DNA of 64,000 nt, from positions 1,240,001 to 1,304,000 of the forward strand of contig NZ_CP107904.1 in the NCBI RefSeq assembly GCF_036013975.1. The letters run 5' to 3'. The notes below the pieces were generated by a model. The model was not told the origin of the DNA. It ran no database searches and was given only the letters and a program-made list of their open reading frames with translations. The stretch is from Kitasatospora sp. NBC_00458 (GTDB taxonomy: Bacteria > Actinomycetota > Actinomycetes > Streptomycetales > Streptomycetaceae). Within the stretch, counting starts at the first letter, position 1. Every line of letters starts with the position of its first letter. Positions 36,968 to 57,988 of the stretch are shown here, piece after piece. A program made the translations under genes and the position numbers.

Positions 36968-37013
36968 GCCCCCATTGCAGCAGCAGTCGGCGGGGAGCTC
37001 TCGGAATCGCGAG

Positions 37014-38613: not shown

Positions 38614-39399
38614 TCAGTGGCGGTGGTGGTTGTCGGGCTGGGCGGGGTCGCCGGGGTGTTCGAGGCCGGGGACGAGGGTGAGGCGGGTGGCGCGGGCCCG
38701 GTCGAGCCAGCGGACGAAGGCGGCGCGGCGGGCGGCGTCCCGGACCGTCGCGGCGGGGTCGGGACGCGCGGGCGCGGCGGGGTCGGGACGCGCGGGCGCG
38801 GCGCCCGGGAGCCCCCGGCGGGCGGTCCGGCCGTCGGCGGTGACCCACTCGTCCGGGGCGGCCGCGCGGAGGGCCGCCGCCAGGGCGAGCGGGAGGGTGG
38901 CCGGGTCGGCCTCGCAGGTGCCGCCGTCGGGGAAGGCGAGGTGCCAGACGGCGGGAGCGGCGGCGGGCCCGGTCATGGTGCGGTAGTGGGCGACCTCCTC
39001 GGCCGTGGGGGTGACGGCGGCGGTGACGGCCTCGTAGACGGCCCGGACCGCCGCACTGCCCTCGTACGCGGCGGCGGTGACGGAGCCGAGTTCGACGGCC
39101 GCCTGCTGGTCGAGGCCGGCGGGGGCGGCCTCGCGGGGGACGGCCAGGCCGCGTTCGGCGGCGACCGTCTCGCAGAGCGCCTCCGTCAGCAGCACCTGGG
39201 CCACCCAGCGGGCCAGTTGGCGGTCCTCGCCGCTGCCGGGCAGCGGCAGGGCGGAGGCGCGCGGCCCGGCGCGGAGGGCGGCGAGGCGGCGGTCGAGGCC
39301 GGTGCGCGGGAGGGGGCGGCCGTCGAGCAGCCCGAGCACCGCGGCGTCGGCGGGCCCGGGCACAGGCCCGAGCACCGCGGCGTCGGCGGGCCCGGTCAC
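38614..39399 (-). CDS. Uncharacterised protein coupled to the GH38 mannosidase
   Basis: A 261-residue protein that I do not recognise with certainty. It is alanine-rich and mainly helical, without a signal peptide. The middle (LARWVAQVLLTEALCETVAAERGL, then PTAEEVAHYRTM) faintly recalls the helical N-domain of SurA/PrsA-type chaperones but has no isomerase domain. The C-terminus has a repeated PARPDPAA stretch and ends NHHRH. Its GTG (39399) overlaps the stop of the GH38 gene by 4 bp (GTGA), so it is translationally coupled. A 30-bp direct repeat (39330-39395) duplicates the first 12 codons and offers a second GTG at 39363. A role in glycan processing is inferred from position only. Confidence 0.75.
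   Translation of the reverse strand: MTGPADAAVLGPVPGPADAAVLGLLDGRPLPRTGLDRRLAALRAGPRASALPLPGSGEDRQLARWVAQVLLTEALCETVAAERGLAVPREAAPAGLDQQAAVELGSVTAAAYEGSAAVRAVYEAVTAAVTPTAEEVAHYRTMTGPAAAPAVWHLAFPDGGTCEADPATLPLALAAALRAAAPDEWVTADGRTARRGLPGAAPARPDPAAPARPDPAATVRDAARRAAFVRWLDRARATRLTLVPGLEHPGDPAQPDNHHRH
39330..39395. repeat. 30-bp perfect direct repeat at a gene start
   Basis: The same 30 bases occur at 39330-39359 and 39366-39395 with a 36-bp period. They duplicate the N-terminal codons of the uncharacterised protein, including the start-codon context (GTGACC / GTGCCC). Confidence 0.85.
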
Positions 39400-42300
39400 G
39401 GCTCGACCACCACGGCGACGGTGGGGGCGTACTGGCAGCGGCCGAACCACATCACCTTGGCGAGCGCCCAGTAGGCGCCGGGGTCGGCGTCCTCGGGGGC
39501 GGCGAGGGCGAACTCCTCGACCGACTCGGCACCGGCCGCCAGGGTGAAGCCGCGGACGGGCGCGCCGACCGTCTCCCAGGTGCCCCACGGCGAGACGAGC
39601 TGCAGCTCGCCGCGGACCTCGCCGCGGGTGCGGTTGGCCAGGCGGACGCCGAGGACGGCGCGGCCGCCGGGGGCGACCCGGACGGTCCCGGCGGTGGAGT
39701 CGACGGTCAGGCCGGTGTCGCGGCCCCCGCCGGAGCCGGTGCCCTGGGCCGCGGTCCAGTCCTCGGGGGCGTCGCCGGGGACGGGCAGCAGGTCCGGCAG
39801 GTCCCCGACGGCGACCGTGACCACGTCCTCCACCTCCTGGCCGTCGTACGCGATCCGGGCGGCGGCGAAGTACAGGCCGGGCGCGGCGCCGTCCGGCGGG
39901 GTGAGGGTGACCGGGAACCGGAGGTGTCCGCCGGCCTCCAGGCGGTAGGGGCGGGCCCCGAGGCTCGCCGTCCACCCGTCCGGCGGGAGGATCCGGGCGG
40001 TTCCCTCGACGGCGGCGTCCCGCAGCTGGGAGGAGAGCACGACCGACAGTGTGACCGGCTCGCCGGCCGTTCGCAGCAGGCCGGGCGAGGCGCCGATCGA
40101 GACCGGGAGGTAGCCGAGCGGCGCCGGTCCCCGGTTGTGCAGCCAGTAGCGCGCGTGCACGGGCTGGGCCGCCTCGGCGACCGGGCCGAGGACCGGGCCG
40201 GCGGCGGGCTCCGCCACGGCGGGCCGGGCCAGCACGGTGGCGGTCCGGAAGCCCGCGAGGTCCGGCTCCGCCGGGCCGGTCGGCCGTTCCAGCAGGTCGG
40301 CGGCGTGCAGGTCGGTCAGCCCGAGGGCGCCTCCGAGCGTGACGGCCGCGCCGAGGCCGGTGGACTCGACCAGGCGGACGGCGAGCCGGTCGCCGACCGG
40401 TGCGGCGGAGCCGTGGGCGATCGGGTTGCCGGCGGGCTTGAGGGCGCCGAGCAGGACCTTGCGGGCGGGTTCGACCCGCAGCCAGGACAGGGCGGCGGGC
40501 AGCGGTCCGTCCTGGGCGGGGGCGGTCCGGGCGTACAGCGGGTGGATGAACTCCTGTCCCTGGGCGGGGAGTTCCTGGGACCGCCAGTCCCCCGGCCCGC
40601 CGGTCAGCGCGTAGTGGAACTCGTGGGTCCAGTGCTGGAGCTGGAAGGAGGCGCCGTCGGGCAGGGTCCGCCGGGGCGGGTCGATCCAGACGCCCGAGGG
40701 CCAGCCGGTGCAGGAGCGCATCAGTGAGAGGTGCAGCGCGCCGGTGGCGTCGACGGCGAAGCCGGGCAGGCCGTTGCTGAGCAACGCCACGGTGTGGTCG
40801 GCGAGTTGTTCACCGGCGTGGACGGGCCCGGGGCAGCCGGCGGTGATCCGGGCGTCGGCGAGGTCGGCGGCGAGCGCGGCGGGGTCGGTCACGACCAGGG
40901 CGGGCAGGGCCCGCAGGTCCCGCAGGTCGGCGCCGGGCCGCCAGACCTCGGCGAGCGGGGTGAGCGCGGGCACCCAGACGGCGCCGTGCTCCTTCAGTGC
41001 GGCCCCGTACGGCGCACCGGCCCGCTCGATCAGCTCCTTGGTGGCGTCGTTGTCCTCCGGTCCGCCGAGGAGGATCCGGAGGTCCGGGAGGTTGGAGTCG
41101 ACGTCGAGCCAGCCGTACCGGGCCCAGTCGGCGCCGGAGGTGGTGGCGGTGACCCCGATCCGGGCCAGTGCCACGACCAGTTCCCGTGCGCCGGGGGCGG
41201 ATTCGAGGTCCGGGACGACCACCTCGGCGACGCCGAACGCGCGTTCGCCGAGCACCGCGCCGGACGCCGGGTCGGTGAGCGTCGCGCGGGCCGTGGAGCC
41301 GAGGCCGAACCAGGTGTTGGCGGGGTTGTCCAGGGTCCACGGCGCCTCGGCGGAGTCGACGTCGGGCAGGGCGAAGCCGCGGCCGACGACGGCCCCGGCG
41401 ACCTCGCTGACCGGCAGTCCGCCGGGCACGTCGACGGGGAAGCGGAGCCGCAGCAGCCGGTCGGCGCCCGTGTAGTCGACGACCCGGGTGCGGCAGTCCA
41501 CCCGGTCCAGTCCGCGCCACAGCGTGACGGTCTGCTCGTAGCGGAGGCCGCTCCCGCCCTCGCCGGCGCCCCCGTCGACGGTGCCGCCGATGACCAGGCG
41601 CTCGCCGAGCGGGCCGGTCTCCCGGCGGACCTCGGCCGGCCGCTCGCCGGAGCCGGTCACCGGTCCCTTCGGGACGAGGTGCCAGGGGCCCTCGCCGAAG
41701 TCGGGGTGCTGCGGGTACTCCTCGTAGACGCGCAGCTCGTTGCCGATCCGGCCGCCCTGGATCAACTCCCGCCCGTGCAAAAGGTCCTGGACGGAGGACA
41801 GGCCGCCGCCGCGGGCCGGGTCGGCGGTCACCCGGTACCGGTCGTTGGCGATGGTGCACCCCCCGGCCGCGGACCAGGCGGTGCCCTCGGACGCGACGGC
41901 GGCGGGCACCAGCCGCCACGTGCGCCAGCCGAGCGCGGGCACGCCCTCGGCCAGGAACCGCAGCGTGCCGCGGTCGACGGCGCTGGGCACCTCGGTGCCG
42001 CCGTCGTCCAGCACCCGCACCGGGGCACGGTTCCCCCGGGGCAGCCGGACGGCGACCAGGTCGCTCCGGTCGAAGGAGAGGGTGTTGGTGACGACGACGG
42101 CCTCGCCCTCGCCGGTCGTGTCGATCCGCGCCGCCAGGGCCTCCAGCGCCCGGTCGCGGACATCCGCCGCCAGGTCGTACGCCTCCCGCCAGCCGCCGAG
42201 CAGGTCCAGGTAGACCTGGTCGGACTCGGAGCCGGTGATCGCGTCGTGGTGCGCGCCGTAGGCGAGTTGGCGCCAGACCTTGTCCAGCGCGGCGGACGGG

Positions 42301-43631
42301 TACCGCCCGAGCCCCTGCACCACGGCGAGGGTGGCGAGCTTCTCGGCGTCGACGGCGGCGACCTCGGCCGCCCGCTGGGCCTGCTTGGTGTCGATGTAGG
42401 AGACGTCCTTGCCGGTGTAGACCGGGTTCATGTCCCGGGTCTGCGGGCTGGGCCGGCGGCCGCTCCCGGCCAGTTCGGCGCGGACGGCGTCGAGGAAGTC
42501 GCGCGGGGTCGCGCAGACGAACCGCGGCCACAGGTAGCGGCCCGCCCAGGAGCGGTGGATCTCGGTGACCCACTTGTTGGGCGGGGTGTAGTCGGTGCCG
42601 ACCGGCAGCAGCAGGTTCTTCGTCGCGCCGACCGGCTTGAGCTTGCGGTACAGCTCGTAGACGGCCTGTTCGGCGGTGGCGAGGTCGGCGGAGGAGTCCA
42701 TCCACCAGCCGGCCGAGTAGTGGTGCGGCATGTAGTGGGTGAGCACGCCGTCGCCGGAGGGTGCGATCCACTCGAACTCGCTGGGGAACTGCATGACCCG
42801 TGCGTCGTCCTTGGCCTCGCGGAAGTTCCTCTGGATCGGGCCCCACTGGTGGAACGGGCCGCGCGCCCAGGCGCTGCCGGTGAGCCCGGCGGCGGCGAGG
42901 TGGCCGGGGAACTGCGGGTCGTGCCCGAACACGTCGAGCTGCCAGGCGGTCTGCGGATCGCCGCCGAGGACGTCGCGCTGGTAGCCGATGCCGTACACGA
43001 TGTTGCGGATCGTCGTCTCGGCGCCGGTGAGGTTGGTGTTGGGCTCGTTGTAGGTGCCGCCGACGAGTTCGACCTGGCCGCGTTCCAGCAGCCGCCGCAG
43101 GGTCTCGCGGCGCTCCGGGTGCTGGTCGAAGTAGGGCTTCAGGTAGTCGACTTCGGCGAGTACGAACGTGTAGACCGGGTCCCGCAGGGCGAGCTCCAGG
43201 TGGGCGTCGACGAGGGCGAAGCCGTTGCGCTCCCAGAGCGGCCGGGTGGTGGCGTCGGCGGAGAGCAGCTCCCAGGGCGAGGTGTAGGCGGCCTGGGTGT
43301 TCCACCAGACCGGGTCGTAGTGGAAGTGCGAGACCAGGAACACGGTCCAGCCGGGTTCGGCGACCTCGACGGTGCCCTCGGCGCGCGCGCCGGAGGCCCC
43401 TGGTCCGTGGGCGGTGACGGTGACCGGCAGGCGGGCGCCGACCGCGGCTCCGGTGATCTCCAGGGGGACTTCGACCAGCCCCGTGCCGGACGTCCCGCCG
43501 TGCACGCCGGGACCGGTGACGGTGATCCGGGCGGGCGGGCCGTCGAGGGTGACCCGCAGCAGCTGGCGCGGGGCGTCCTCGGGTCCGGTGAACAGGTCCG
43601 TGCTCTCGACGGCGGTGATGGTGACCGGCAC
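39396..43631 (-). CDS. GH38 alpha-mannosidase, long form
   Basis: A 1411-residue alpha-mannosidase. The GH38 metal site is HFHYDPVW (His104, Asp106) plus AHHDAITG (His461), and the nucleophile is Asp233 in QLDVFGHD. About 95 residues of beta-sandwich precede the catalytic domain, and the C-terminal 500 residues hold further beta domains (LANRTRGEVRGELQLVSPWG), which makes it longer than the usual 900-1000. No signal peptide is present after GTG 43631 (AGGAAAGGA upstream), so it probably acts on imported glycan. It lies 32 bp downstream of the secreted GH85 enzyme and overlaps the next gene, within the LacI-controlled leftward operon. Confidence 0.93.
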   Translation of the reverse strand: MPVTITAVESTDLFTGPEDAPRQLLRVTLDGPPARITVTGPGVHGGTSGTGLVEVPLEITGAAVGARLPVTVTAHGPGASGARAEGTVEVAEPGWTVFLVSHFHYDPVWWNTQAAYTSPWELLSADATTRPLWERNGFALVDAHLELALRDPVYTFVLAEVDYLKPYFDQHPERRETLRRLLERGQVELVGGTYNEPNTNLTGAETTIRNIVYGIGYQRDVLGGDPQTAWQLDVFGHDPQFPGHLAAAGLTGSAWARGPFHQWGPIQRNFREAKDDARVMQFPSEFEWIAPSGDGVLTHYMPHHYSAGWWMDSSADLATAEQAVYELYRKLKPVGATKNLLLPVGTDYTPPNKWVTEIHRSWAGRYLWPRFVCATPRDFLDAVRAELAGSGRRPSPQTRDMNPVYTGKDVSYIDTKQAQRAAEVAAVDAEKLATLAVVQGLGRYPSAALDKVWRQLAYGAHHDAITGSESDQVYLDLLGGWREAYDLAADVRDRALEALAARIDTTGEGEAVVVTNTLSFDRSDLVAVRLPRGNRAPVRVLDDGGTEVPSAVDRGTLRFLAEGVPALGWRTWRLVPAAVASEGTAWSAAGGCTIANDRYRVTADPARGGGLSSVQDLLHGRELIQGGRIGNELRVYEEYPQHPDFGEGPWHLVPKGPVTGSGERPAEVRRETGPLGERLVIGGTVDGGAGEGGSGLRYEQTVTLWRGLDRVDCRTRVVDYTGADRLLRLRFPVDVPGGLPVSEVAGAVVGRGFALPDVDSAEAPWTLDNPANTWFGLGSTARATLTDPASGAVLGERAFGVAEVVVPDLESAPGARELVVALARIGVTATTSGADWARYGWLDVDSNLPDLRILLGGPEDNDATKELIERAGAPYGAALKEHGAVWVPALTPLAEVWRPGADLRDLRALPALVVTDPAALAADLADARITAGCPGPVHAGEQLADHTVALLSNGLPGFAVDATGALHLSLMRSCTGWPSGVWIDPPRRTLPDGASFQLQHWTHEFHYALTGGPGDWRSQELPAQGQEFIHPLYARTAPAQDGPLPAALSWLRVEPARKVLLGALKPAGNPIAHGSAAPVGDRLAVRLVESTGLGAAVTLGGALGLTDLHAADLLERPTGPAEPDLAGFRTATVLARPAVAEPAAGPVLGPVAEAAQPVHARYWLHNRGPAPLGYLPVSIGASPGLLRTAGEPVTLSVVLSSQLRDAAVEGTARILPPDGWTASLGARPYRLEAGGHLRFPVTLTPPDGAAPGLYFAAARIAYDGQEVEDVVTVAVGDLPDLLPVPGDAPEDWTAAQGTGSGGGRDTGLTVDSTAGTVRVAPGGRAVLGVRLANRTRGEVRGELQLVSPWGTWETVGAPVRGFTLAAGAESVEEFALAAPEDADPGAYWALAKVMWFGRCQYAPTVAVVVEP

Positions 43632-43663
43632 GGGGCGGGTCCTTTCCTCGTGGAGCGGAGGAG

Positions 43664-46126
43664 CTACGCGCCCCAGGCCTCGAACTCGTAGATGCGGGCG
43701 GCGGGGTCGGTGTTCTGGGTCGGCTTGGTGACCACCAGCCGGGCGTACCGGGCGGTCGCCGTCACCGGGTGGGTGGTGGTGCCCGCGGTGTTGCCGGTGA
43801 CGGTGGCGACGGTGGTCCACGGGTCGGTGTCGGACGCGCGCACCTGGACGGTGAAGTCGCGGGTGTTGTAGCTCGCGCTCTCGCCGCCGGCCTGGGCGTG
43901 CTTGACCACGAACTTCGACAGCGCCTTGGCCGAACCCAGGTCCACCTCCAGCCACTTGCCGCCGGTGGTGGTGCACCACTTGTCGCCGTTGCCGCCGTTG
44001 ACGGTGCCGTTGACGGCCTTCGCCGGGCCCTCATCGGTGTTGCACTGGCCGGAGGCGGTGGCCGGGCGGTTGAGCGCCAGGTTCCCGCCGGCCGGCGGGG
44101 TGCCGGTCCAGGGGACGGTGGTGGTGGCGGCGGTGGAGCGGCCGTACTCGGTGGAGACGGCCTCCACCTCGATCACGGTGTTCGCCTCGGTGCCGGCCCG
44201 GTCCAGCCGGTTGACGAAGTAGGCGTCGGACGGGGTGGCGCCCAGGTAGCCGCGGGTGCCGTCGGCGTTGCGCCGGTACAGCTCGTAGTGGTGCACGGCG
44301 CCGCTCGCCGAGGGCGTCCAGGAGAGCCGCAGCGACTGGCTCGCGCCGGCCACCACGTCGCTCGCGCCGAGCACGGTCAGCCCGCCCGGTGCCGCGGGTG
44401 CGTCCACCGTGCCGTCGTACACGGCGAGTTGGCCGATCCTGAGGTCGTAAGCGGGGTTGGATCCGGCGGCCTGGAAGCCGATCTGGGCGATGGTGCGGCC
44501 CGCATAGGCGGAGAGGTCGAGGGTCTTGCGCTCCCAGCCCGTCCCGGAGGTGGCGCCGAGGTCGAGGGTGGTGAACGCGGTCGGCGCGTCGGTGAAGGAG
44601 ACCGCCGCCTTCAGGCCGGTGGCCCCGGCGGTCGGGGACTTGACCACGACGGACAGCTTGCTGTCGGCGGCGACCGGCAGCCTGGTCTGGTACAGCCGCA
44701 GGGTGTTGACGGCGTTCAGGTTGCCGCTGAGGCGCAGCGAGGAGCCGCCCTCGTAGGCGTCGGTGAAGTCGACCGACGGGGTGAGCTCGGCGCCGGTCGA
44801 GGAGAGCAGCCAGTGGTAGGTGGGCGGGACGTCCTGGAGCGAGAGGTTGTTCCAGCCGCCGGTGGCGACCCGGGCGCCGGCCGCGTTGTAGAAGTCCCCC
44901 TCGCCGGAGGAGAAGTTGGTGACGAAGGGCTTGGCGGTGACCGGTGTCGACTCGGCGACGTAGCTCGCGAGGCCCTTCCAGCTCGACGAGGTCGAGGTGT
45001 CGGAGGGGTCGTTGTTGGCGCCCACCCAGTACCGGGCGTCCTTGGCCAGGTAGTCGGCGCGGCCGGTGGCGGACTTCCAGGTCCACTCGGGCCGGTAGAG
45101 GCCGAGCGAGGTGGTGTGCGGGGCGTTGGCGGGGAAGAGGCTGTTCCAGTCGACGCCCGTGTTGTAGCCGTTGGCCTCGGTGTCGATGCCGGAGTAGAGC
45201 TCGTACTCGCTGCGGCCGAGGCCGCGGGCCAGGGTCCGGGAGGAGTTCAGGCCGCCGGAGGACCAGTTGAAGTTGAGGAACATCGAGTCGGAGGTGCGCT
45301 TGGCGCCCTCCTGGAGGAACGCGTCGTTGGCGGAGGTCAGCGCGTTCTGCCAACTGACCGGTCCGGACTCGGTCATGGCGTCGTACCACATGAAGTCGGT
45401 GCCGCTCTGCGCCTTGGTGTACTGCATGAGGCTGCGGACCTCGCCGGCGAGCGCCGAATCGCCGCCGCCGGTCTCCTGGTTGATGAACCAGCCGTCGAAG
45501 CCGTAGTACTGGGCCGCCTGCACCAGCTTGTCGGCGACGGGGTAGCGGGAGCCGGACTTCTGGACGAAGTCGCGGACCCACTGGAGCTGTCCGCCGTACG
45601 CGGCGGGCGGGAAGAAGACGGTGCCGTAGACCTTGACGCCGTTGCGGTGGGCGGCGTCGATGACGGTCGGGTTGGGGGCGAGGATCAGGCCCTCGCCGGC
45701 CGAGCCGCCCCAGAAGACCAGCTTGTCGACGTACTGCCAGTAGCCGAAGGCGTAGTAGTTGGGGTCGGCGGAGCCCTGGGAGGGGTTGTCGGAGGTCGGG
45801 CCGAAGGAGACCAGGGAGGCGATCTTCCCTTCGCCCGCACGGGCGTTGGGGTTGGCCTTCAGTGCCGGGTCGCTGGTGCGCGGCTGGAGCGGGACGCGCG
45901 AGCGGTTGAACCGGGCGTCGGGGTCGGTGGCCGGGTCCCAGTTCAGGATGCTGTTCGGGTACCAGTAGGAGGCGTAGGGCTGGGTGCCGGCGGCGGCGCT
46001 CGCCGCGGCGGGGGCCGCCGGGGAGGGTGCGGCGGGGGTCGGGGCGGCCTGGGCGGCGGTGGGTGCGGTGCCCAGGAGGGCGGCTCCGAGGGCGGCGCTC
46101 AGCAGCAGGGGTATCCGTCGAGACAT
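43664..46126 (-). CDS. Secreted GH85 endo-beta-N-acetylglucosaminidase with F5/8 type C domain
   Basis: An 820-residue exported ENGase. The signal peptide ends near AAQAAP. The GH85 barrel has SYWYPNSILNWDP, YWQYVDKLVFWGG and the catalytic block GFDGWFINQETGG, with Asn216 and Glu218 as the oxazoline-stabilising residue and general acid by family knowledge. Beta-sandwich and fibronectin-like domains follow, and an F5/8 type C (CBM32-like) module ends the chain (NLALNRPATASGQC to YEFEAWGA). It cleaves the chitobiose core of N-glycans, leaving GlcNAc on the protein. ATG 46126 is first in an operon with GH38 and the coupled unknown gene; its promoter and LacI operator lie at 46374-46402, giving a leader of about 240 nt. 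Confidence 0.93.
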   Translation of the reverse strand: MSRRIPLLLSAALGAALLGTAPTAAQAAPTPAAPSPAAPAAASAAAGTQPYASYWYPNSILNWDPATDPDARFNRSRVPLQPRTSDPALKANPNARAGEGKIASLVSFGPTSDNPSQGSADPNYYAFGYWQYVDKLVFWGGSAGEGLILAPNPTVIDAAHRNGVKVYGTVFFPPAAYGGQLQWVRDFVQKSGSRYPVADKLVQAAQYYGFDGWFINQETGGGDSALAGEVRSLMQYTKAQSGTDFMWYDAMTESGPVSWQNALTSANDAFLQEGAKRTSDSMFLNFNWSSGGLNSSRTLARGLGRSEYELYSGIDTEANGYNTGVDWNSLFPANAPHTTSLGLYRPEWTWKSATGRADYLAKDARYWVGANNDPSDTSTSSSWKGLASYVAESTPVTAKPFVTNFSSGEGDFYNAAGARVATGGWNNLSLQDVPPTYHWLLSSTGAELTPSVDFTDAYEGGSSLRLSGNLNAVNTLRLYQTRLPVAADSKLSVVVKSPTAGATGLKAAVSFTDAPTAFTTLDLGATSGTGWERKTLDLSAYAGRTIAQIGFQAAGSNPAYDLRIGQLAVYDGTVDAPAAPGGLTVLGASDVVAGASQSLRLSWTPSASGAVHHYELYRRNADGTRGYLGATPSDAYFVNRLDRAGTEANTVIEVEAVSTEYGRSTAATTTVPWTGTPPAGGNLALNRPATASGQCNTDEGPAKAVNGTVNGGNGDKWCTTTGGKWLEVDLGSAKALSKFVVKHAQAGGESASYNTRDFTVQVRASDTDPWTTVATVTGNTAGTTTHPVTATARYARLVVTKPTQNTDPAARIYEFEAWGA

Positions 46127-46373: not shown

Positions 46374-46402
46374 AGGCTAAACCGGTTCAGGGGCGCTGTC
46401 AA
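46374..46402 (-). promoter_or_regulatory. GH85 operon promoter with LacI-type operator
   Basis: On the minus strand TTGACA (46402-46397) and TAGCCT (46379-46374) are 17 bp apart. The palindrome CTGAACCGGTTTAG (46390-46377) fills the spacer and overlaps the -10, a classical repression layout. The whole element lies in the last codons of lacI, and the palindrome includes its stop codon. Confidence 0.8.
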
Positions 46403-47525
46403 CGGTGCCCGCGGAGACCGCTCCGGGGGGTGAGACGGCCCCCGGCGCCGGACCGTCCCCCGCCGGCACGGCGGCCGTCCCGGCGGCTCCGGCCCCCGCC
46501 GGACCGTCCGCCGCGGGCGGCGAGGTGGACTCGCGGACGGTCAGCCGCGGGGTCGGCATCTGGAGGTCCCGGCCGGGCCCGGCGTCGTCGATCACCGCGA
46601 GCAGGCTGCGCGCGACCTGCTCGCCGAGCGCGAAGGTGTCCCGGCTGAGCGCGGTGAGCGGCGGGTGCACGATCCGGGCGAGCACCGAGTCGTCGAAGGA
46701 GACGATGGACAGCTCGCCGGGCACCGCGACGCCCATCTCCCCGGCCACTCCGAGGCCGGCCACCGCCATCACGTCGCTGTCGTAGACGATCGCGGTGGGG
46801 CGTCTGGGCCGGGAGAGCAGGGTGCGGGTGGCGGCGGCGCCCTCGGCGTCGCTGAAGTCGGTCGGGACGGACACCGCCTCCTCCAGGCCGAGCCGCCGGG
46901 AGGCGTCCCGCAGGGCGCGGATCCGCCGCTGGGTGTGCTGGAAGTGGGGCAGCCCGGCCAGGTGGGCGATCCGCCGGTGCCCGATGGCGGCCAGGTAGTC
47001 GACGATGGAGAGCATCGCCTCGCGGTCGTCGGCCCAGATCCGCAGCGGGCCGGCGCCCTTGCCGGGGCCGCCCAGGACGACGGCGGGCAGGCCGAGTTCC
47101 TCCAGCACCGCCAGCCGCGGGTCGCGCAGCTGGAGGTCGACCACGATGAAGCCGTCGACGCGGTGCTCGGAGGTCCAGCGCCGGTAGACCTCGATCTCGG
47201 CCGCGGTGTCCTCGACGACCATCAGGTGGAGGGCGACGGAGCGGGCGGAGAGCACGGCCTGGAGGCCGGAGAGCAGCTGGCTGAAGAACGGCTCGACGCC
47301 GATGGTCCGGGCCGGGCGGGCGATCACCAGCCCCACCGCGTCGGCCCTGGCACCGCCGAGGGCGCGGGCGGCGCTGTGCGGCCGCCAGTTCATCTCCTCG
47401 GCGACCCGGAGGATCCGGGCCCTGGTCGCCTCGCTCACCCCGGGGCGCCCGTTGAGCGCGAAGGACACCGCGCCCTTGGAGACACCGGCCTGTCGGGCGA
47501 TGTCGGCGATCGTCGGTCTGCCCAC
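46377..47525 (-). CDS. LacI-family transcriptional regulator
   Basis: A 382-residue repressor. The N-terminal helix-turn-helix is canonical (PTIADIARQAGVSKGAVSFA, then ALNGRPGVSE), with hinge and periplasmic-binding-like domain (DAVGLVIARP, DGFIVVDLQL, GELSIVSFDDSVLA). The last 45 residues are a Pro/Ala/Gly-rich tail. GTG 47525 with GAGGAG upstream gives the usual LacI N-terminus; the ATG at 47549 lacks a site. It sits between the GH85-GH38 operon and the divergent importer-GH operon, and both promoters carry the same palindrome, so it most likely represses the entire glycan locus until a mannose-containing sugar binds. Confidence 0.93.
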   Translation of the reverse strand: MGRPTIADIARQAGVSKGAVSFALNGRPGVSEATRARILRVAEEMNWRPHSAARALGGARADAVGLVIARPARTIGVEPFFSQLLSGLQAVLSARSVALHLMVVEDTAAEIEVYRRWTSEHRVDGFIVVDLQLRDPRLAVLEELGLPAVVLGGPGKGAGPLRIWADDREAMLSIVDYLAAIGHRRIAHLAGLPHFQHTQRRIRALRDASRRLGLEEAVSVPTDFSDAEGAAATRTLLSRPRRPTAIVYDSDVMAVAGLGVAGEMGVAVPGELSIVSFDDSVLARIVHPPLTALSRDTFALGEQVARSLLAVIDDAGPGRDLQMPTPRLTVRESTSPPAADGPAGAGAAGTAAVPAGDGPAPGAVSPPGAVSAGTVDSAPEPV

Positions 47526-47542
47526 GGGTTCCGACTCCTCTC

Positions 47543-47597
47543 TTGACATCCAAGTTTAGGCGGGAGCATAGTCCCTGCAACAGCTAGACCGGTTTAG
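47543..47597 (+). promoter_or_regulatory. Importer operon promoter with LacI-type operator
   Basis: TTGACA (47543-47548) and CATAGT (47567-47572) are 18 bp apart and face the importer operon. The palindrome CTAGACCGGTTTAG (47584-47597) starts about 11 bp after the -10, near the expected transcription start. It matches the GH85 operator at 12 of 14 positions, read on the plus strand as CTAAACCGGTTCAG. Confidence 0.8.
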
Positions 47598-49053: not shown

Positions 49054-49152
49054 TCCCGCCCCCGGACCCACCGGTACCGACGGAGCGGCGGCACCCCCGC
49101 GCCGCCGCCCGCCGGGAACGACCCGCACCGCACGCCCCAGGAAGGCATCGGC

Positions 49153-50025: not shown

Positions 50026-50029
50026 ACCC

Positions 50030-50971
50030 GTGACCCGCACCGCCGCCGCCGTCCCGCCGGCCGCGCCCTCCCCCGCCGGCACCGCCCCCCGCAGCGCCGG
50101 TCGCGGCGCCGGGACCGGCCGCACCCGACGGCCCCGCACCTTCGACAACCCCGGCCCGCTCCGGACGACGGGGCGCTACCTGCTCCTCGTCGCCGTCCTG
50201 CTGCTGGTCATCGGCCCGTTCCTCTGGCAGCTCTCGACCTCGCTCAAGGGCCCGGGCGAGGACGTCTACACCGCGACCCCCGGTTTCTTCCCGAAGGACC
50301 TCACCTTCTCCAACTACGGCAAGGTCGCGGACACCATCCCGGTCTGGACCTACGCCGCCAACTCGCTGGTCGTCGCCGCGATCGCGATCCTCGGCAACGT
50401 GGTCGGCTGCACCCTGGCCGGCTACGCGCTCGCCAAGCTGCGGTTCCGCGGCGCCAGGCTGCTCCTCGGCCTCCTCCTCGCCACCCTGATCCTGCCCGGC
50501 GAGGCCACCATCGTCTCCCAGTACGTCACCGTGCGGGGCCTCGGCCTGGCCGACACGCTCACCGGCGTCGCCCTGCCCGGCGCGATCGCGATGCTGAACG
50601 TGCTGCTGATGCGCACCGCCTTCGCCGCCGTGCCGCCCGAGCTGGACCAGGCCGCGCTGGTCGACGGCGCCAACGTCTGGCAGCGCCTGTGGCACGTCGG
50701 CCTGCCGAACGTGCGCGGCATGCTCAGCGTGATCGTGATCTTCACCTTCATCGGCGCCTGGGACGACTTCCTCTGGCCGCTGATCGTGCTCAACGACCCG
50801 CAGAAGTACACGCTGACCGTCGGACTGCAGTACCTGAACGGCACGTTCACCACCAACCCGCGGCTGATCGCCGCCGGCACCATGATCGCGTTCGTGCCGA
50901 TCGTCGTGGTCTTCGCCGTCTGCCAGCGGTTCTTCTTCAAGGGCGTGGAGGAGGGAGCCGTCAAGGGATAG
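50030..50971 (+). CDS. Sugar ABC transporter permease (MalG type, glycan locus)
   Basis: A 313-residue permease with EAA loop LDQAALVDGANVWQRLWHVG. The first 45 residues are a Pro/Ala/Arg-rich cytoplasmic tail. GTG 50030 lies four bases after the previous stop, indicating coupling. It completes the importer for the N-glycan-derived oligosaccharide. Confidence 0.9.
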   Translation: MTRTAAAVPPAAPSPAGTAPRSAGRGAGTGRTRRPRTFDNPGPLRTTGRYLLLVAVLLLVIGPFLWQLSTSLKGPGEDVYTATPGFFPKDLTFSNYGKVADTIPVWTYAANSLVVAAIAILGNVVGCTLAGYALAKLRFRGARLLLGLLLATLILPGEATIVSQYVTVRGLGLADTLTGVALPGAIAMLNVLLMRTAFAAVPPELDQAALVDGANVWQRLWHVGLPNVRGMLSVIVIFTFIGAWDDFLWPLIVLNDPQKYTLTVGLQYLNGTFTTNPRLIAAGTMIAFVPIVVVFAVCQRFFFKGVEEGAVKG

Positions 50972-51070
50972 CCCCGCCCGCCCGACCCGTCGCCGACCCG
51001 TCGCAGCCCGACCCCCGTCGCCGCCCCGACCGCCCCGCGACGGCCGCACCCACGAGGAAGCCCACCGAGC

Positions 51071-52369
51071 ATGACCGCCTCCCGGCCCGCCTCCCCGGCC
51101 ACCGCCCCCCTCCCCCGGCCCGCCGCCGCCCCGCGGTTCGGCGTCAACTACACGCCCACCGAGGGCTGGTTCCACCACTGGCTCGACTTCGACCTCGACG
51201 CCGTCCGCGCCGACCTCGACTCGATCGCCGCGCTCGGCCTGGACCACGTCCGGGTCTTCCCGATCTGGCCGGTCTTCCAGCCCAACCGCACGCTGATCCG
51301 CCCGCGCGCCGTCGAGCAGCTCACCGCCCTGGTGGACGCGGCCGCCGAGCGGGGCCTGGACGTCGCGGTGGACGGCCTCCAGGGCCACCTCTCCAGCTTC
51401 GACTTCCAGCCCTCGTGGACCCAGACCTGGCACCGGCGGAACGTCTTCACCGACCCGGACGTGCTCGACGGCCAGGCCGCGTACCTGCGCACCCTGGCCG
51501 CCGCCCTCGCCGACCGGCCCAACTTCCTGGGCATGACGGTCGGCAACGAGGTCAACCAGTTCTCCGGCGAGCCGCACCCCGACCCGGACCGGGCCACCCC
51601 CGCGCAGGTCGAGGCCTGGCTGCACCGGATGGTCGGCGCCTGCGAGGAGGGCGCGCCCGGCCGCCTCCACCTGCACGCCTCCTACGACGCCGCCTGGTAC
51701 CTGGACGAGCACCCGTTCACCCCGTGGCACTCGGCCCGGATCGGCGCCGCCACCGCCGTGCACTCCTGGGTGTTCAACGGCACCGCCCAGCGCTACGGCG
51801 CCCGCTCCACCGCCTCCGACCAGCACGCCGCCTACCTCGTCGAACTGTCGAAGGCCTGGGCGCGGGACCCGCACCGCCCGGTCTGGCTCCAGGAAGTCGG
51901 CGCGCCGGCCCCGCACATCACCGCCGGGGACGCCGCCCGGTTCACCGGCGCCACGGTCGCGGCCGTCCTGGACTGCCCCGACCTGTGGGGCGTCACCTGG
52001 TGGTGCTCGCACGACGTGGACCGCGCGCTGGCCGACTTCCCCGAGCTGGAGTACAGCCTGGGCCTGCTCACCACCGACCGGCGGGTCAAGCCGGCCGGCG
52101 CCAGGCTGGCCGCCGCCGTCGCCGCGCTGCGCGAGGACTGGCGGGCGCCGGCCCCGCGGACCACGGCGGTGGTGGTCGCCACCGGCGACGAGGTCACCGC
52201 GCCCAAGCGCTCGGTCTGCGGCCCGGGCGGCCCCGTCTTCGAGGCGTTCATGCGCCTCGCCGGGGCGGGCGCCCGCCCGACCGCGGTCCTCGCCGAGCAC
52301 GCCGAGGACCCCGCCCACCTGACCGCCCGGGGCATCACCGAGGTCGTCCACCCGGACGACGTACGCTGA
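51071..52369 (+). CDS. GH5-type beta-mannosidase-like enzyme (resembling GH5_18)
   Basis: A 432-residue (beta/alpha)8 glycosidase without signal peptide. The acid/base is in TVGNEVNQFSG (Glu160) and the nucleophile in WLQEVGAP (Glu275); FGVNYTPTEGWFHHWLDFD is a strong family signature. I assign it to the GH5 branch (GH5_18) in which a bifidobacterial member is known to split Man-beta-1,4-GlcNAc from the N-glycan core. That subfamily placement is from memory of the signature and context. The job fits exactly: after ENGase and alpha-mannosidases, Man-beta-1,4-GlcNAc is what remains. ATG 51071 follows GAGGAAG. It is preceded by the importer and followed at 50 bp by the second GH38. Confidence 0.82.
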   Translation: MTASRPASPATAPLPRPAAAPRFGVNYTPTEGWFHHWLDFDLDAVRADLDSIAALGLDHVRVFPIWPVFQPNRTLIRPRAVEQLTALVDAAAERGLDVAVDGLQGHLSSFDFQPSWTQTWHRRNVFTDPDVLDGQAAYLRTLAAALADRPNFLGMTVGNEVNQFSGEPHPDPDRATPAQVEAWLHRMVGACEEGAPGRLHLHASYDAAWYLDEHPFTPWHSARIGAATAVHSWVFNGTAQRYGARSTASDQHAAYLVELSKAWARDPHRPVWLQEVGAPAPHITAGDAARFTGATVAAVLDCPDLWGVTWWCSHDVDRALADFPELEYSLGLLTTDRRVKPAGARLAAAVAALREDWRAPAPRTTAVVVATGDEVTAPKRSVCGPGGPVFEAFMRLAGAGARPTAVLAEHAEDPAHLTARGITEVVHPDDVR

Positions 52370-52419
52370 CGCCACCTCCCACGTCCGTTCCCCTCAGTCG
52401 CACAACGGAGTCCGCTGAC

Positions 52420-55400
52420 ATGCACGATGACCGCAGCCTGGTCGAAGCCCGCCTCAAGCGCGTCCTGGAGGAGCGCATCCGTCCGGCGGTCCACCCCGAG
52501 TCCGTCCCGCTCTCGGTCTCGATCTGGACGGCTCCCGGCGAGCCCGTCCCGGTCGCCGAGGGGCTGGCCGCGCCCCGCACGCCGATCGCCGTCGGCGAGG
52601 CCTGGGGCGCGCCGTGGGGCACCAGCTGGATCACCGTGGCCGGCACCGTGCCGGAGGCCTGGGCCGGGCGGACGGTCGAGGCGCTGATCGACCTCGGCTT
52701 CGACGCCAACATGCCGGGCTTCCAGTGCGAGGGCCTGGTCTACCGGCCGGACGGCACCCCGGTGAAGGGCCTCAACCCGCAGAACCAGTGGGTGCGGATC
52801 GCCGCCCCGGCGGCCGGCGGCGAGCAGGTGCTGCTGCACGTCGAGGCCGCCTCCAACCCGGTCATCCTGGACTACCACCCCTTCCTTCCCACCGAGTTGG
52901 GCGACCGGGAGACCGCCGGGGCGGAGCCGCAGTACAAGCTGGAGCGGATGGACCTCGCCGTCTTCGACGAGACCGTCTGGCAGCTGGTGATGGACCTGGA
53001 GGTGCTCGGCGAGCTGATGGCCGAGCTGCCGGACGACGGCGCCCGCCGCTGGGAGATCCTGCGCGCCGTCGAGCGGGCGCTCGACGCGGTCGACCTCCAG
53101 GACGTCAACGGCACTGCGGCGGCGGCCCGTTCGCTGCTCACCGAGGTGCTGGCCGCGCCCGCCGCACCGTCCGCGCACCGGATCAGCGCGATCGGCCACG
53201 CCCACATCGACTCCGCCTGGCTCTGGCCGCTGCGCGAGACGGTCCGCAAGGTGGCCCGCACCACCGCCAACATGACCGCGCTGCTGGAGGACGAGCCGGA
53301 CTTCCTCTACACCATGTCCCAGGCGCAGCAGTTCGCCTGGATCAAGGAGCACCGCCCCGAGGTGTACGCCCGGGTGAAGAAGGCGGTCGCGGACGGCCGC
53401 TTCGTACCGGCCGGCGGCATGTGGGTGGAGTCGGACACCAACATGCCGTCCTCCGAGGCGATGGCCCGTCAGTTCGTGCACGGCAAGCGGTTCTTCCTGG
53501 AGGAGTTCGGGGTCGAGAACCAGGAGGCGTGGCTCCCGGACACCTTCGGCTTCACCGGCGGCCTGCCGCAGATCATCCGCAACGCGGGCTCCAAGTGGCT
53601 GCTCACGCAGAAGATCTCCTGGAGCCAGGTCAACAGGTTCCCGCACCACACCTTCCTCTGGGAGGGCATCGACGGGACCAGGGTCTTCACCCACTTCCCG
53701 CCCGTGGACACGTACAACTGCTCGATGAAGGGCAGCGAGATCGCCCACGCGGCGAGGAACTTCAAGGACAAGGGCGTCGCCCGGCACTCGCTCGCGCCGA
53801 CCGGCTGGGGCGACGGCGGCGGCGGCACCACCCGTGAGATGGTCGCCAAGGCGGCCCGGCTGCGCGACCTGGAGGGCTCGGCCACGGTGCGCTGGGAGCG
53901 GCCGGCCGAGTTCTTCGAGAAGGCCGAGGCCGAGTACCCGAAGCCGCCGGTCTGGGTGGGCGAGCTGTACCTGGAGCTGCACCGGGCCACCCTCACCAGC
54001 CAGGCGAGGACCAAGCAGGGCAACCGGCGCAGCGAGAACCTGCTGCGCGAGGCCGAACTCTGGTGCGCCACTGCGGCGTTGCGCAACGGCCACCCGTACC
54101 CGTACGAGCAGCTGGACCGGATCTGGAAGACCGTGCTGCTGCACCAGTTCCACGACATCCTGCCCGGCTCGTCGATCGCCTGGGTGCACCGCGAGGCCGA
54201 GGCCACCTACGCGGGTCTGGCCGCGGAGCTGGAGGCGCTGATCGGTGGGGCCCAGCAGGCGCTGGCCGGGGACCCGGCGGGCGGGCGCGAGCTGGCCTTC
54301 AACGGCGCGCCACACGGCCGTTCGGCGGTCCCGGCCGGCGGGGCCGCCCCGGTGGCGGCGGTCGGCGTGGACAGCGCGGTCGGCACCGACGGCGCGGACG
54401 GCGGCTGCACGGTGACGGCCCGCGACGGTGGCGGCTTCGTCCTGGACAACGGCCTGCTGTCGGTGGCCGTGGACGGCGACGGCCTGGTGGTCTCGGTGGT
54501 CGACGCGGCGAGCGGCCGGGAGACGGTCGCCCCCGGCGGCCGGGCCAACCTGCTCCAGCTGCACCCCGACTTCCCGAACATGTGGGACGCCTGGGACGTC
54601 GACCAGTTCTACCGCAACACCGTGACCGACCTGGTCGGGGCGGACGAGGTCGCGGTGGCCGCCGCCTCCCCCGGCGAGGCGGCGGTCCGGGTCGCCCGGT
54701 CCTTCGGTTCGTCCACGGTCGTCCAGACGCTGACCCTGCGGGCCGGTTCGCGGCGCCTGGACATCGACACCGAGGTCGACTGGCACGAGACCGAGAAGTT
54801 CCTCAAGGCGGCCTTCCCGCTGGACGTGCACACCGAGCGGTACGCGGCCGAGACCCAGTTCGGCCACCAGTTCCGCCCGACCCACACCAACACGAGCTGG
54901 GAGGCGGCCAAGTTCGAGGCCTGCAACCACCGCTTCGTCCACCTGGAGGAGCCGGGCTGGGGCGTCGCGCTGGTCACCCCTTCGACGTACGGCCACGACG
55001 TCACCCGGACGGTGCGCGAGGAGGACGGCGGGACCACCACCACGGTCCGGTTCTCGCTGCTGCGCGCACCGCGCTTCCCCGACCCGCGCACCGACCAGGG
55101 CGTGCACCGGTTCCGGCACGCGCTGGTGCCGGGCGCGGCGATCGCCGACGCGGTCCGCGAGGGGTACGCCGTCGGCCTCCCGGAGCGCCGGGTGACCGGC
55201 TCCGCGGAGGTGGTCCGGCCGCTGGTGGAGCTGGACGACGACGCGATCGTGGTCAGCGCCGTCAAGCTCGCCGACGACGGCAGCGGCGACCTGGTGGTGC
55301 GGGTCTACGAGGCGGTCGGCGGGCGTGCCCGGGGTCGGCTGGCCACCTCGTTCCCGCTGGCCGCCGCGGTGCCCTGCGACCTGCTGGAGCGCCCGTGGGA

Positions 55401-55497
55401 CGGGACGCGCGGCGAGGTCGCGGTGGACGGCGACGGCGTCGCGCTCGGCCTGCGGCCGTTCGAACTGGTGACCCTGAGGCTGACGCCCTCGGCCTGA
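52420..55497 (+). CDS. GH38 alpha-mannosidase (cytosolic type)
   Basis: A 1025-residue alpha-mannosidase of the Man2C1-like class. An N-terminal beta domain (about 1-250) leads to the catalytic domain with GHAHIDSAWLW (His262, Asp264), nucleophile Asp374 in WLPDTFGF and the third metal region HQFHDILPGSS. The C-terminal beta-sandwich (DAWDVDQFYRN, HTNTSWEAAKFE) is typical. No signal peptide. ATG 52420 has CGGAG at about 10 nt. Its sequence differs clearly from the long GH38 of this locus, suggesting that the two cut different alpha-mannosyl linkages. A hairpin at 55542-55568 follows. Confidence 0.95.
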   Translation: MHDDRSLVEARLKRVLEERIRPAVHPESVPLSVSIWTAPGEPVPVAEGLAAPRTPIAVGEAWGAPWGTSWITVAGTVPEAWAGRTVEALIDLGFDANMPGFQCEGLVYRPDGTPVKGLNPQNQWVRIAAPAAGGEQVLLHVEAASNPVILDYHPFLPTELGDRETAGAEPQYKLERMDLAVFDETVWQLVMDLEVLGELMAELPDDGARRWEILRAVERALDAVDLQDVNGTAAAARSLLTEVLAAPAAPSAHRISAIGHAHIDSAWLWPLRETVRKVARTTANMTALLEDEPDFLYTMSQAQQFAWIKEHRPEVYARVKKAVADGRFVPAGGMWVESDTNMPSSEAMARQFVHGKRFFLEEFGVENQEAWLPDTFGFTGGLPQIIRNAGSKWLLTQKISWSQVNRFPHHTFLWEGIDGTRVFTHFPPVDTYNCSMKGSEIAHAARNFKDKGVARHSLAPTGWGDGGGGTTREMVAKAARLRDLEGSATVRWERPAEFFEKAEAEYPKPPVWVGELYLELHRATLTSQARTKQGNRRSENLLREAELWCATAALRNGHPYPYEQLDRIWKTVLLHQFHDILPGSSIAWVHREAEATYAGLAAELEALIGGAQQALAGDPAGGRELAFNGAPHGRSAVPAGGAAPVAAVGVDSAVGTDGADGGCTVTARDGGGFVLDNGLLSVAVDGDGLVVSVVDAASGRETVAPGGRANLLQLHPDFPNMWDAWDVDQFYRNTVTDLVGADEVAVAAASPGEAAVRVARSFGSSTVVQTLTLRAGSRRLDIDTEVDWHETEKFLKAAFPLDVHTERYAAETQFGHQFRPTHTNTSWEAAKFEACNHRFVHLEEPGWGVALVTPSTYGHDVTRTVREEDGGTTTTVRFSLLRAPRFPDPRTDQGVHRFRHALVPGAAIADAVREGYAVGLPERRVTGSAEVVRPLVELDDDAIVVSAVKLADDGSGDLVVRVYEAVGGRARGRLATSFPLAAAVPCDLLERPWDGTRGEVAVDGDGVALGLRPFELVTLRLTPSA

Positions 55498-55541
55498 TCC
55501 TGTTTCCTGTCCCTGGCGTCCCTTCGCCGTCCTGATCGATC

Positions 55542-55568
55542 GCCCCCGCCCGCGACCCGGGCGGGGGC
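55542..55568 (+). terminator. Hairpin between GH38 and ROK kinase genes
   Basis: An 11-bp stem (55542-55552 with 55558-55568) with a five-base loop lies 44 bases after the GH38 stop. It may terminate part of the transcripts and lower expression of the two sugar-phosphate genes downstream. Confidence 0.5.
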
Positions 55569-55594
55569 CCGCGCCCCGCCCGGAGCCACCCGCC

Positions 55595-56620
55595 ATGACC
55601 GCCGCCACGCCGTCCGCCGCCACGCCGCCCCCCGCCACCGACGCGGCCACCGCGCCCGCACCGGACGCCGGACCGATCCCGGGCGACGCCGCCCCGGCCG
55701 CGGGACCGCTGTTCGCCGCGCTCGACATCGGCGGGACGAAGATCGCCGGTGCGCTCGTCGACCCGACCGGCGCGCTCACCCACCGGATCCAGCTCCCCAC
55801 TCCCGCACGGGAGTCCGGCGCCGCCGTGCTGGCCGTCGTGCACCGGGTGCTGGACCACCTGGCCGCCACGCCCGGGTGGGCCGCCGCCGTCGCCGTCGGG
55901 ATCGGCAGCGCGGGCCCGGTGGACCTCGTGCGGGGCACCGTCAGCCCGGTCAACATCCCCGGCTGGCGCGACTTCCCGCTCACCGCGGAGGTCGCCGCGC
56001 ACCCCGCCGTCGGACCGCGCTCCGTCGCCCTGGCCGGGGACGGCGTGGCGATGGCCGCCGCCGAGCACTGGCGCGGCGCGGCACGCGGCGCCGGCAACGC
56101 GCTCTGCCTGGTCGTCTCCACGGGCGTCGGCGCCGGGCTGGTGCTGGACGGCGCCGTCCGCCCCGGCCCCAGCGGCAACGCCGGCCACCTCGGCCACATC
56201 ACCGTCGACCTCGACGGCGAGCCCTGCCCCTGCGGCTCGCGCGGCTGCCTGGAGGGCATCGCCAGCGGTACCGCGATCGCCCGCCACGCCCTCGCCGCGG
56301 GCTGGCGGCCCGCCGGGGAGGACCGCTCCGCCCGCGCCGTCGCCGCCGACGCGCTGGCCGGCCACCCGGTCGCGGCGGCCGCGTTCGACCGGGCCGCGCA
56401 GGCACTGGCCGCCGGGATCGCCGCCACCGCCACCCTGGTGGACCTGCACCGGGTGGTGATCGGCGGCGGGGTCGCCGCCGCCGGCCCCGCCCTCTTCGAA
56501 CCGCTCGCCCGCCACCTGGACCGGTACGCCGTGCTGCCCTACGTTCGTGGTCTCGACGTCCGCCGCGCCGAACTCGGCACCGACGCGGGCCTGATCGGCG
56601 CCGCCGCGCTCTGCCGCTGA
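55595..56620 (+). CDS. ROK-family sugar kinase, probable mannokinase/glucokinase
   Basis: A 341-residue ROK kinase. The phosphate loop is ALDIGGTKIAGALVD (Asp44), the ROK signature STGVGAGLVLDG and the zinc motif CPCGSRGCLEG are intact, and there is no helix-turn-helix, so it is an enzyme and not a regulator. The first 38 residues are Pro/Ala-rich and dispensable-looking. It would phosphorylate mannose released by the mannosidases; glucose or GlcNAc are alternatives. The start ATG 55595 follows CGGAGCC. It is 21 bp upstream of the mannose-6-phosphate isomerase, supporting mannose as substrate. Confidence 0.88.
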   Translation: MTAATPSAATPPPATDAATAPAPDAGPIPGDAAPAAGPLFAALDIGGTKIAGALVDPTGALTHRIQLPTPARESGAAVLAVVHRVLDHLAATPGWAAAVAVGIGSAGPVDLVRGTVSPVNIPGWRDFPLTAEVAAHPAVGPRSVALAGDGVAMAAAEHWRGAARGAGNALCLVVSTGVGAGLVLDGAVRPGPSGNAGHLGHITVDLDGEPCPCGSRGCLEGIASGTAIARHALAAGWRPAGEDRSARAVAADALAGHPVAAAAFDRAAQALAAGIAATATLVDLHRVVIGGGVAAAGPALFEPLARHLDRYAVLPYVRGLDVRRAELGTDAGLIGAAALCR

Positions 56621-56641
56621 CCCGCCCCTGGGAGCATCCGC

Positions 56642-57988
56642 ATGCCCGTCCAGCCGTCACCCGGCCGCCCCTCCTCCGTGCCCGCCCCGGCCGCGCCGCG
56701 GCCGTCCGCCCTCGCACCGCCCGCCGTTCCCCCGTTCGTCCCGCTCGCCAACCCCGTGCGGGACTACGCGTGGGGCTCCACCACCGCCATCCCCGCGCTC
56801 ACCGGCACCCCGCCGACCGGCGCACCGCAGGCGGAGCTCTGGATGGGCGCCCACCCCTCGGCGCCCTCCCTGCTCGACACCGGCCGGGGCCCGCGCCCGC
56901 TGGACCGCCTGATCGCCGACGCCCCGGCCGAGTTGCTCGGGCCCGACACCGTCCGGCGGTTCGGCCCCCGGCTCCCCTTCCTGTTCAAGGTGCTGGCCGC
57001 CGACCGGGCGCTCTCCCTCCAGGTCCACCCCACCCGCGCGCAGGCCGAGGCCGGCTGGGACGCCGAGGAGTCCCGCGGGGTGCCGGCCGACGCCCCCGAG
57101 CGGGTCTTCAAGGACCGTGACCACAAGCCCGAACTGATCTGCGCACTGGGCGACTTCGAGGCACTCTGCGGGTTCCGCCCGGCCGGTGCCACGGCCGCGC
57201 TGTTCGACCGGCTGGCCGTGCCGCCGCTCGCCCCGTGGGCCGCCGCGCTCCGGGACCGGCCCGCGGCCGAGGTGCTGCCCGCACTGCTGCGGCACGTCCT
57301 GGCGGACGCCCGCCCCGGCCCGGCCGACCTCGCCGCCGTCACCGCCGCACTGCACCGGACCGCCGCGGAGGGCGGGCCGTTCGCCGAAGCCTGCGCCGGG
57401 TACGCGCGGGCCGCCGGCGACTACCCGGGGGACCCGGGGCTGATCGCCGCGCTGCTGCTGAACCACGTCCGGCTCCGGGCCGGCGAGGCGCTCGCTCTGG
57501 ACGCCGGGGTGCCGCACGCCTACCTGCGCGGCGTGGGCGTGGAGCTGATGGCCAACTCGGACAACGTGCTGCGGTGCGGCCTCACCGCCAAGCACATCGA
57601 CGTGGACGGCCTGCTGGCGGTGACCGCGTTCCGCACCGGCGAACCGCCCGTCCTGACCGCGCACGCCCCGGAGGGCAACGGTGCCGCGACCGGGGACCGC
57701 ACCGCGACCGGGATCGGGATCGGGATCGGGATCGAGGAGCAATTCCCCTCACCCGCCGCCGAGTTCCGTCTGTCGATGCTGCGGCCCACCGCCGCACCCG
57801 CCCGGATCGACCTGGCGGACGCCCCGCAGATCCTCCTCTGCACCGCCGGCCGCGCCCGTCTCCGCACCCCCGCCGGCCACGCCCTCGACCTCCCCCGGGG
57901 CCGAAGCGCCTACCTCCGCCCCGGCACCGACCCCGTCCATCTCACGGGCCCTGGCGCGGAGCTCTTCCGCGCCACCGTCGGCGACTGA
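56642..57988 (+). CDS. manA: Class I mannose-6-phosphate isomerase
   Basis: A 448-residue zinc cupin isomerase that converts mannose 6-phosphate to fructose 6-phosphate. Signatures: NPVRDYAWGSTTAIP, LSLQVHPTRAQAEAG (His ligand), DHKPELICALGDFEALCGFR (Glu ligand) and ALDAGVPHAYLRGVGVELMANSDNVLRCGLT (His and active-site region). A low-complexity loop encoded by GGGATC repeats (57709-57737) gives TGIGIGIGIEE. ATG 56642 has GGGAG at 7 bp. It ends the rightward operon and links the N-glycan route to glycolysis. A genome copy outside this locus may exist, so this one may be pathway-dedicated. Confidence 0.95.
   Translation: MPVQPSPGRPSSVPAPAAPRPSALAPPAVPPFVPLANPVRDYAWGSTTAIPALTGTPPTGAPQAELWMGAHPSAPSLLDTGRGPRPLDRLIADAPAELLGPDTVRRFGPRLPFLFKVLAADRALSLQVHPTRAQAEAGWDAEESRGVPADAPERVFKDRDHKPELICALGDFEALCGFRPAGATAALFDRLAVPPLAPWAAALRDRPAAEVLPALLRHVLADARPGPADLAAVTAALHRTAAEGGPFAEACAGYARAAGDYPGDPGLIAALLLNHVRLRAGEALALDAGVPHAYLRGVGVELMANSDNVLRCGLTAKHIDVDGLLAVTAFRTGEPPVLTAHAPEGNGAATGDRTATGIGIGIGIEEQFPSPAAEFRLSMLRPTAAPARIDLADAPQILLCTAGRARLRTPAGHALDLPRGRSAYLRPGTDPVHLTGPGAELFRATVGD
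57709..57737. repeat. GGGATC hexanucleotide repeat inside manA
   Basis: About four and a half copies of GGGATC encode alternating Gly-Ile in a variable loop of the isomerase. The period of six keeps the reading frame if the copy number changes. Confidence 0.75.

Follow-up and report, generated by a model that had tools for sequence, protein, structure and literature searches.

A predicted locus for eating N-glycans, in which a protein of the DUF7158 family most likely helps an alpha-mannosidase (GH38a) to fold or mature, was identified in a 64,000-nucleotide stretch of Kitasatospora sp. NBC_00458 (NZ_CP107904.1, positions 1,240,001 to 1,304,000; hereafter the window). Read together, these two parts form an interpretation that we regard as quite probable. 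The N-glycan reading is well supported by the encoded sequences, yet loci of this type are already known from publications on actinobacteria of soil, on Bifidobacterium and on Cutibacterium. New in this locus is the DUF7158-GH38a unit, while the pathway is a further member of the published type, extending it to Kitasatospora with a defined LacI operator. The host genome is a single contig of 8.01 Mb, and the closest named relatives for the locus were Kitasatospora and Streptomyces.

All genes named in the first-pass annotation were detected where it had placed them; their catalytic motifs, the signal peptide, the lipobox and both lacI-type operators are intact. The minus-strand arm encodes a LacI-family regulator (46377-47549), a GH85 endo-beta-N-acetylglucosaminidase with GH85_C and F5/8-type-C (CBM32-like) domains (43664-46126) and GH38a, an alpha-mannosidase of 1411 aa with an NPCBM_assoc/NEW3 domain (39396-43631), all three recognized by Pfam. 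The plus-strand arm encodes a lipoprotein family 1 solute-binding protein (SBP) of an ABC importer (47767-49053; Pfam and lipobox), ABC permeases 1 and 2 (49153-50025 and 50030-50971; Pfam), a predicted cytoplasmic GH5_18 beta-mannosidase for Man-beta-1,4-GlcNAc (51071-52369; PDB matches), GH38b, a cytoplasmic alpha-mannosidase of the B. longum N-glycan type (52420-55497; Pfam and 7UFS), a ROK sugar kinase with mannose or GlcNAc as candidate substrates (55595-56620; family models) and manA, a type I mannose-6-phosphate isomerase (56642-57988; TIGR00218, 209.7 bits vs. a cut-off of 116.2). The two divergent arms were as described, with a correction to the arrangement around lacI: this gene opens the minus-strand arm, the divergent promoter separates it from the SBP gene, and the second operator falls between it and the GH85 gene. 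The word "complete" was also too strong, because the importer ATPase and the nag/GlcNAc genes are absent from 38614-57988, which holds all other components. Streptomyces sugar importers commonly share the single ATPase MsiK. GH125 was absent from the Kitasatospora locus. The left end of the range is occupied by an additional gene that had not been described, the last of the minus-strand arm, encoding the DUF7158 protein (38614-39399, minus strand; PF23716, 49.7 bits vs. a cut-off of 27).

The GH85 catalytic domain scored 284.5 bits against a Pfam cut-off of 22.2 and is the only one in the genome. Its translation starts with a signal for secretion, MSRRIPLLLSAALGAALLG...AQA, which together with the F5/8-type-C domain agrees with the secreted, CBM32-bearing enzyme proposed earlier. 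The catalytic N-x-E motif reads FINQE and aligned with the motif region of Endo-A. The closest solved relatives were 2VTF, 3FHQ and 3FHA, which we take to be Endo-A, followed by Endo-D. The GH5 gene had no Pfam match at all. Membership of its product in GH5_18 was one of the points on which the first-pass annotation had made its reading depend, and residues 15-431 of 432 aligned to ScGH5_18 (7LR7, E=1.5e-226), a full-length match that places the enzyme inside this subfamily. Further matches were BlGH5_18 (7LQX, E=4.4e-126), BlMan5B (6MP2, 4.2e-117) and the exo-beta-mannosidase of C. acnes (6GVB, E=2e-107), and the catalytic Glu pair is retained in VGNE and WLQE (vgnevnq and wlqevgap match 7LR7). 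Judged by this alignment, the product is beyond doubt a GH5_18 enzyme. We take 7LR7 and 7LQX, of S. cattleya and B. longum respectively, to be structures from Higgins et al. 2021.

GH38b was closest, over its full length, to four alpha-mannosidases (7UFR-7UFU; 7UFS, E=1.4e-259), presumably the GH38 enzymes of B. longum. GH38a resembled solved GH38s in its catalytic half only. N, middle and C domains as well as metal and nucleophile residues were present in both, and the translations of these two dissimilar GH38s and of the GH5 enzyme start without a signal peptide, as had been claimed. The lipoprotein ABC importer was likewise recovered, with a lipobox in the SBP (LTGC in the translation) and two permeases in place, and family models confirmed the ROK kinase and manA. 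For the specificity of the ROK kinase, all NCBIfam models fell below their cut-offs and the best PDB matches were a mixture of glucokinase and NanK.

Two near-identical palindromes flank lacI, CTAAACCGGTTCAG between lacI and the GH85 gene (46377-46390) and CTAGACCGGTTTAG in the divergent lacI-SBP promoter region (47584-47597), neither with an assigned strand. Allowing up to two mismatches from the palindrome CTAAACCGGTTTAG, these are the only two sites in the genome; this count is no proof, because a reversed control pattern yielded the same number of matches, and conservation and position were therefore used as evidence. Of 50 related loci, 43 had a match of at least 12 of 14 positions upstream of lacI; with 300 shuffled palindromes as controls, every one scored 0. 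The operators said to be shared by both arms are thus present and conserved across genera. None of the other operator-like genomic sites, ANACCGGTTNA (L144-L146), lies within two mismatches of the full palindrome. The equivalent gene set is rearranged in Planotetraspora, Nonomuraea and Salinispora, with the same operator motif, which precedes the GH5_18 arm and stays with lacI despite the changed gene order. These results indicate a predicted LacI-regulated operon pair, in which a conserved palindromic operator at both arms accompanies the regulator that would bind it. In the four Catenulispora loci (L105-L108), a divergently oriented lacI (70% identical) has GH38a-DUF7158 as its only partner, without GH85 or GH5_18, and three of these loci have a related operator-like palindrome about 47 bases ahead of GH38a. 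In this genus the regulator and GH38a travel as a pair.

The order of the proposed pathway (extracellular release, import, removal of alpha-mannose, cleavage of Man-beta-1,4-GlcNAc, phosphorylation of mannose and isomerization) follows established family activities (PMC10154615; PMC6160142). The secreted GH85 would cut glycoproteins within the chitobiose core, an activity expected from family knowledge. The resulting ManN-GlcNAc1 would be bound by the lipoprotein and probably imported via the two permeases with an ATPase encoded elsewhere, after which the cytoplasmic GH38b and GH38a would remove alpha-mannose. GH5_18 would split the leftover Man-beta-1,4-GlcNAc, an activity established for close homologues, and the ROK kinase, with mannose as its putative substrate, and ManA would convert mannose to fructose-6-phosphate. 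LacI would repress both arms via the two operators and be released by a mannose-containing intermediate as its presumed ligand.

Gut and soil actinobacterial N-glycan loci are the subject of Higgins et al. 2021 (ACS Chem Biol 16:701), according to its title as given in PMC12691653. The S. cattleya and B. longum loci share cytoplasmic GH38 and GH5_18 enzymes with that of Kitasatospora, and ScGH5_18 and BlGH5_18 were the best matches of its GH5_18. The high-mannose system of Bifidobacterium longum, in which three GH38 and a GH125 are encoded in one operon (PMC10154615), is similar in having no trimming before the ENGase, followed by import and cytoplasmic GH38 and GH5_18 (6MP2/6MOY, BlMan5B). 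It differs from the Kitasatospora locus, where GH125 is missing and the two GH38s belong to different classes, the second being of the mycobacterial type. Cutibacterium acnes also encodes adjacent cytoplasmic GH38 and GH5_18 with an SBP, permeases and a regulator; its locus, however, has GH20 and GH18 (PMC6160142), while that of Kitasatospora has a secreted GH85 and defined LacI operators.

The set of LacI, GH85, SBP, permeases, GH5_18, GH38 and ROK genes was syntenic in many Kitasatospora and Streptomyces. Among 150 relatives, GH5_18 was commoner (62 genomes) than GH85 (39), and DUF7158 was found in 58. In addition, six relatives' loci (L045, L046, L050, L065, L072 and L114) lack GH85 while keeping LacI, the transporter, GH5_18, GH38b and GH38a-DUF7158. 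Both observations would fit a locus that serves fungal or plant mannoproteins or alpha-mannan oligosaccharides of soil, with N-glycan cores as one substrate of several and GH85 as an ancillary enzyme. We consider this improbable. All but one of the 39 genomes with GH85 also encode GH5_18 (and 34 of them DUF7158), the loci without GH85 could rely on a GH18 ENGase encoded elsewhere, and GH85 enzymes have so far been active exclusively on N-glycans (PMC10154615).

A comparison of 80 GH38a loci from named genomes together with the relatives' loci indicated that GH38a is broadly distributed in actinobacteria, occurring in Kitasatospora, Streptosporangiaceae, Salinispora, Kribbella, Catenulispora, Nocardia and many Mycobacterium. 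Of 95 loci, 92-94 have kept the catalytic and metal-site motifs HFHYDPVWW, LDVFGHDPQF and GAHHDAITG. In Kribbella, many Nonomuraea and Mycobacterium, GH85 and GH5_18 were not seen nearby, and GH38a is followed by DUF7158 and usually then by ROK. By these comparisons GH38a is a separate actinobacterial class, located mostly outside N-glycan loci.

DUF7158 is closely tied to this class. In the window its GTG start and the GH38a stop share 4 nt, and a 4-nt RTGA overlap of the two genes was present in most loci. DUF7158 lies downstream of GH38a in 90 of the 92 loci with enough sequence (the tail in 88), a figure that is partly circular since the DUF7158 profile was built from those loci. An independent survey of 297 genomes across the phylum gave the same picture: all seven strong DUF7158 matches adjoin a GH38a, and seven of the eight GH38a genes above 45% identity have DUF7158. 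The loci and the alignment share ancestry, so these counts are not independent events. The partner has also been lost. Among 99 sampled mycobacteria, 11 of the 79 genomes with GH38a had no DUF7158 match, and in most of the DUF7158-less mycobacterial loci read, ROK directly follows GH38a. Two Kitasatospora loci (L043 and L044) also lack DUF7158 beside GH38a. The idea that GH38a universally requires DUF7158 was therefore rejected; the protein is not strictly required. In L044 an intact GH38a is adjoined by a DUF7158 remnant with an internal deletion, MTAVLGLLDGYPLLPTAPPDDHHRH (MTAVLGLLDG...PDDHHRH).

The Pfam model of DUF7158 covers 38 residues. Conservation peaked in the last 19 residues (0.86 vs. 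0.35-0.71 elsewhere, in an alignment of 59 members), a near-invariant C-terminal tail, GxEHPGDPxQPDNxHRH (GLEHPGDPAQPDNHHRH in the window), with G231, E233, H234, P235, D237, H245 and the C-terminal H247 invariant. The tail is predicted to be disordered. Two complete mycobacterial genomes (L157/G492 and L158/G520) encode an orphan DUF7158 without any GH38a, and in these the tail has decayed to RHSGDPRRPRRR and RHVGDPRRPRRR. This decay, observed in two related genomes, suggests that the tail sequence is maintained for the sake of GH38a.

Several comparisons related the body of DUF7158 to SurA. The family profile matched SurA in the PDB (E=3.8e-5), and divergent members matched Rotamase_2 (7.2e-15) and SurA_N_3 (1.9e-5). 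For the window protein, the AF2 model (pLDDT 91.5) had SurA as its best Foldseek match, a weak one (E=3.4e-3). The model of L140, the most complete divergent member (pLDDT 88.3), matched SurA, PEB4-type proteins and PrsA with E down to 2.4e-8. TM-scores of these matches were modest, as expected because multi-lobe chaperones are flexible. Unlike secreted SurA and PrsA, the window protein and typical members have no signal peptide. From profiles and models, DUF7158 is thus a predicted cytoplasmic SurA/PrsA-like protein with a SurA-type N-domain and a PpiC-type domain, and not a periplasmic SurA or PrsA. Within the Kitasatospora protein, conservation is lowest in the PPIase-like middle region, which makes isomerase activity doubtful.

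A client-specific folding factor would fit the translational coupling, the pairing with one GH38 class, the SurA-like body and the free, conserved tail. DUF7158 would bind nascent GH38a through its SurA-like body, its His/Asp tail docking on the enzyme, and would aid the folding or maturation of GH38a, as NifM does for NifH. Some NifH proteins depend on NifM, a cytoplasmic PpiC-type protein, and others have no NifM beside them (PMC12691677). The likeness is one of working mode: both are cytoplasmic and encoded beside one client, and in other lineages there are clients that do without the helper. It has limits, since the PpiC domain is the active part of NifM whereas the middle region of Kitasatospora DUF7158 is poorly conserved and its C-terminal tail conserved, and the client is different. 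The strict pairing and coupling would equally fit a stable regulatory or structural subunit bound 1:1 to GH38a; this reading is unlikely, though far from negligible, because a SurA/PrsA-like fold is typical of transient chaperones and the loss of DUF7158 from several lineages that kept GH38a suits a helper better. GH38 enzymes require a divalent metal, and the three invariant His of the tail, together with extra His-rich N-termini in at least five of 88 members (e.g. MSHGHGHGHGHGHGHG), could point to a metallochaperone loading the active-site metal of GH38a through His-rich ends. Such a role appears unlikely: the His-rich N-terminus is confined to a minority, and other GH38 classes mature without DUF7158.

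To our knowledge, no such maturation helper is known for any GH38-family glycoside hydrolase. Our literature search found no paper linking a parvulin with an alpha-mannosidase in actinobacteria, nor one discussing DUF7158. The broader proposal that DUF7158 is a dedicated maturation factor for the giant GH38 class of Actinomycetota, including the Rv0648 type, with a tail that docks or delivers metal and with "FabD2" as a mislabelled member, is put forward tentatively, at somewhat less than an even chance. If true, it would mean that a carbohydrate enzyme has its own client-specific folding factor, and it would explain a family of unknown function. It would also correct a likely misannotation of the mycobacterial "FabD2" and point to a helper required for expressing Rv0648-type mannosidases.

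The mycobacterial case rests on gene order. In M. persicum (L120, 10001-17102) the genes for an ABC1 kinase, GH38a, DUF7158, ROK, rplJ and rplL follow each other, those from GH38a to rplL in one direction, which we take to be the order of Rv0647c-Rv0652 in M. tuberculosis. This order therefore suggests that DUF7158 corresponds by position to Rv0649 ("FabD2"), which would then not be a transacylase. The Rv0648-type region differs from the Kitasatospora locus in having no GH85, GH5_18 or LacI. For Rv0648, alpha-mannosidase function was demonstrated and a role in envelope mannan turnover proposed, with nothing further since the first report (PMC8035080). Rv0649 has been named FabD2, a malonyl-CoA:ACP transacylase (PMC2651862), and DUF7158 might by this label be a FabD-like acyltransferase. 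We consider this extremely improbable and rejected it on family-model matches and the SurA-like fold: the meaningful matches of DUF7158 members were limited to the DUF7158, Rotamase_2, Rotamase and SurA_N models, and the M. persicum counterpart matched DUF7158 only.

Some further features were observed in the window around the locus. A DUF6528 protein is encoded just outside it (59416-60555, minus strand). On the other side, an AraC-family regulator gene (36062-36967) is divergent to two small genes, with a second noted interval at 37000-37070. Near-inverted repeats around CGAGGATCGTGCAAGCGAGAGCGAGAATCGTTCTAC flank this AraC-family gene at 35990-36045 and 37010-37050.
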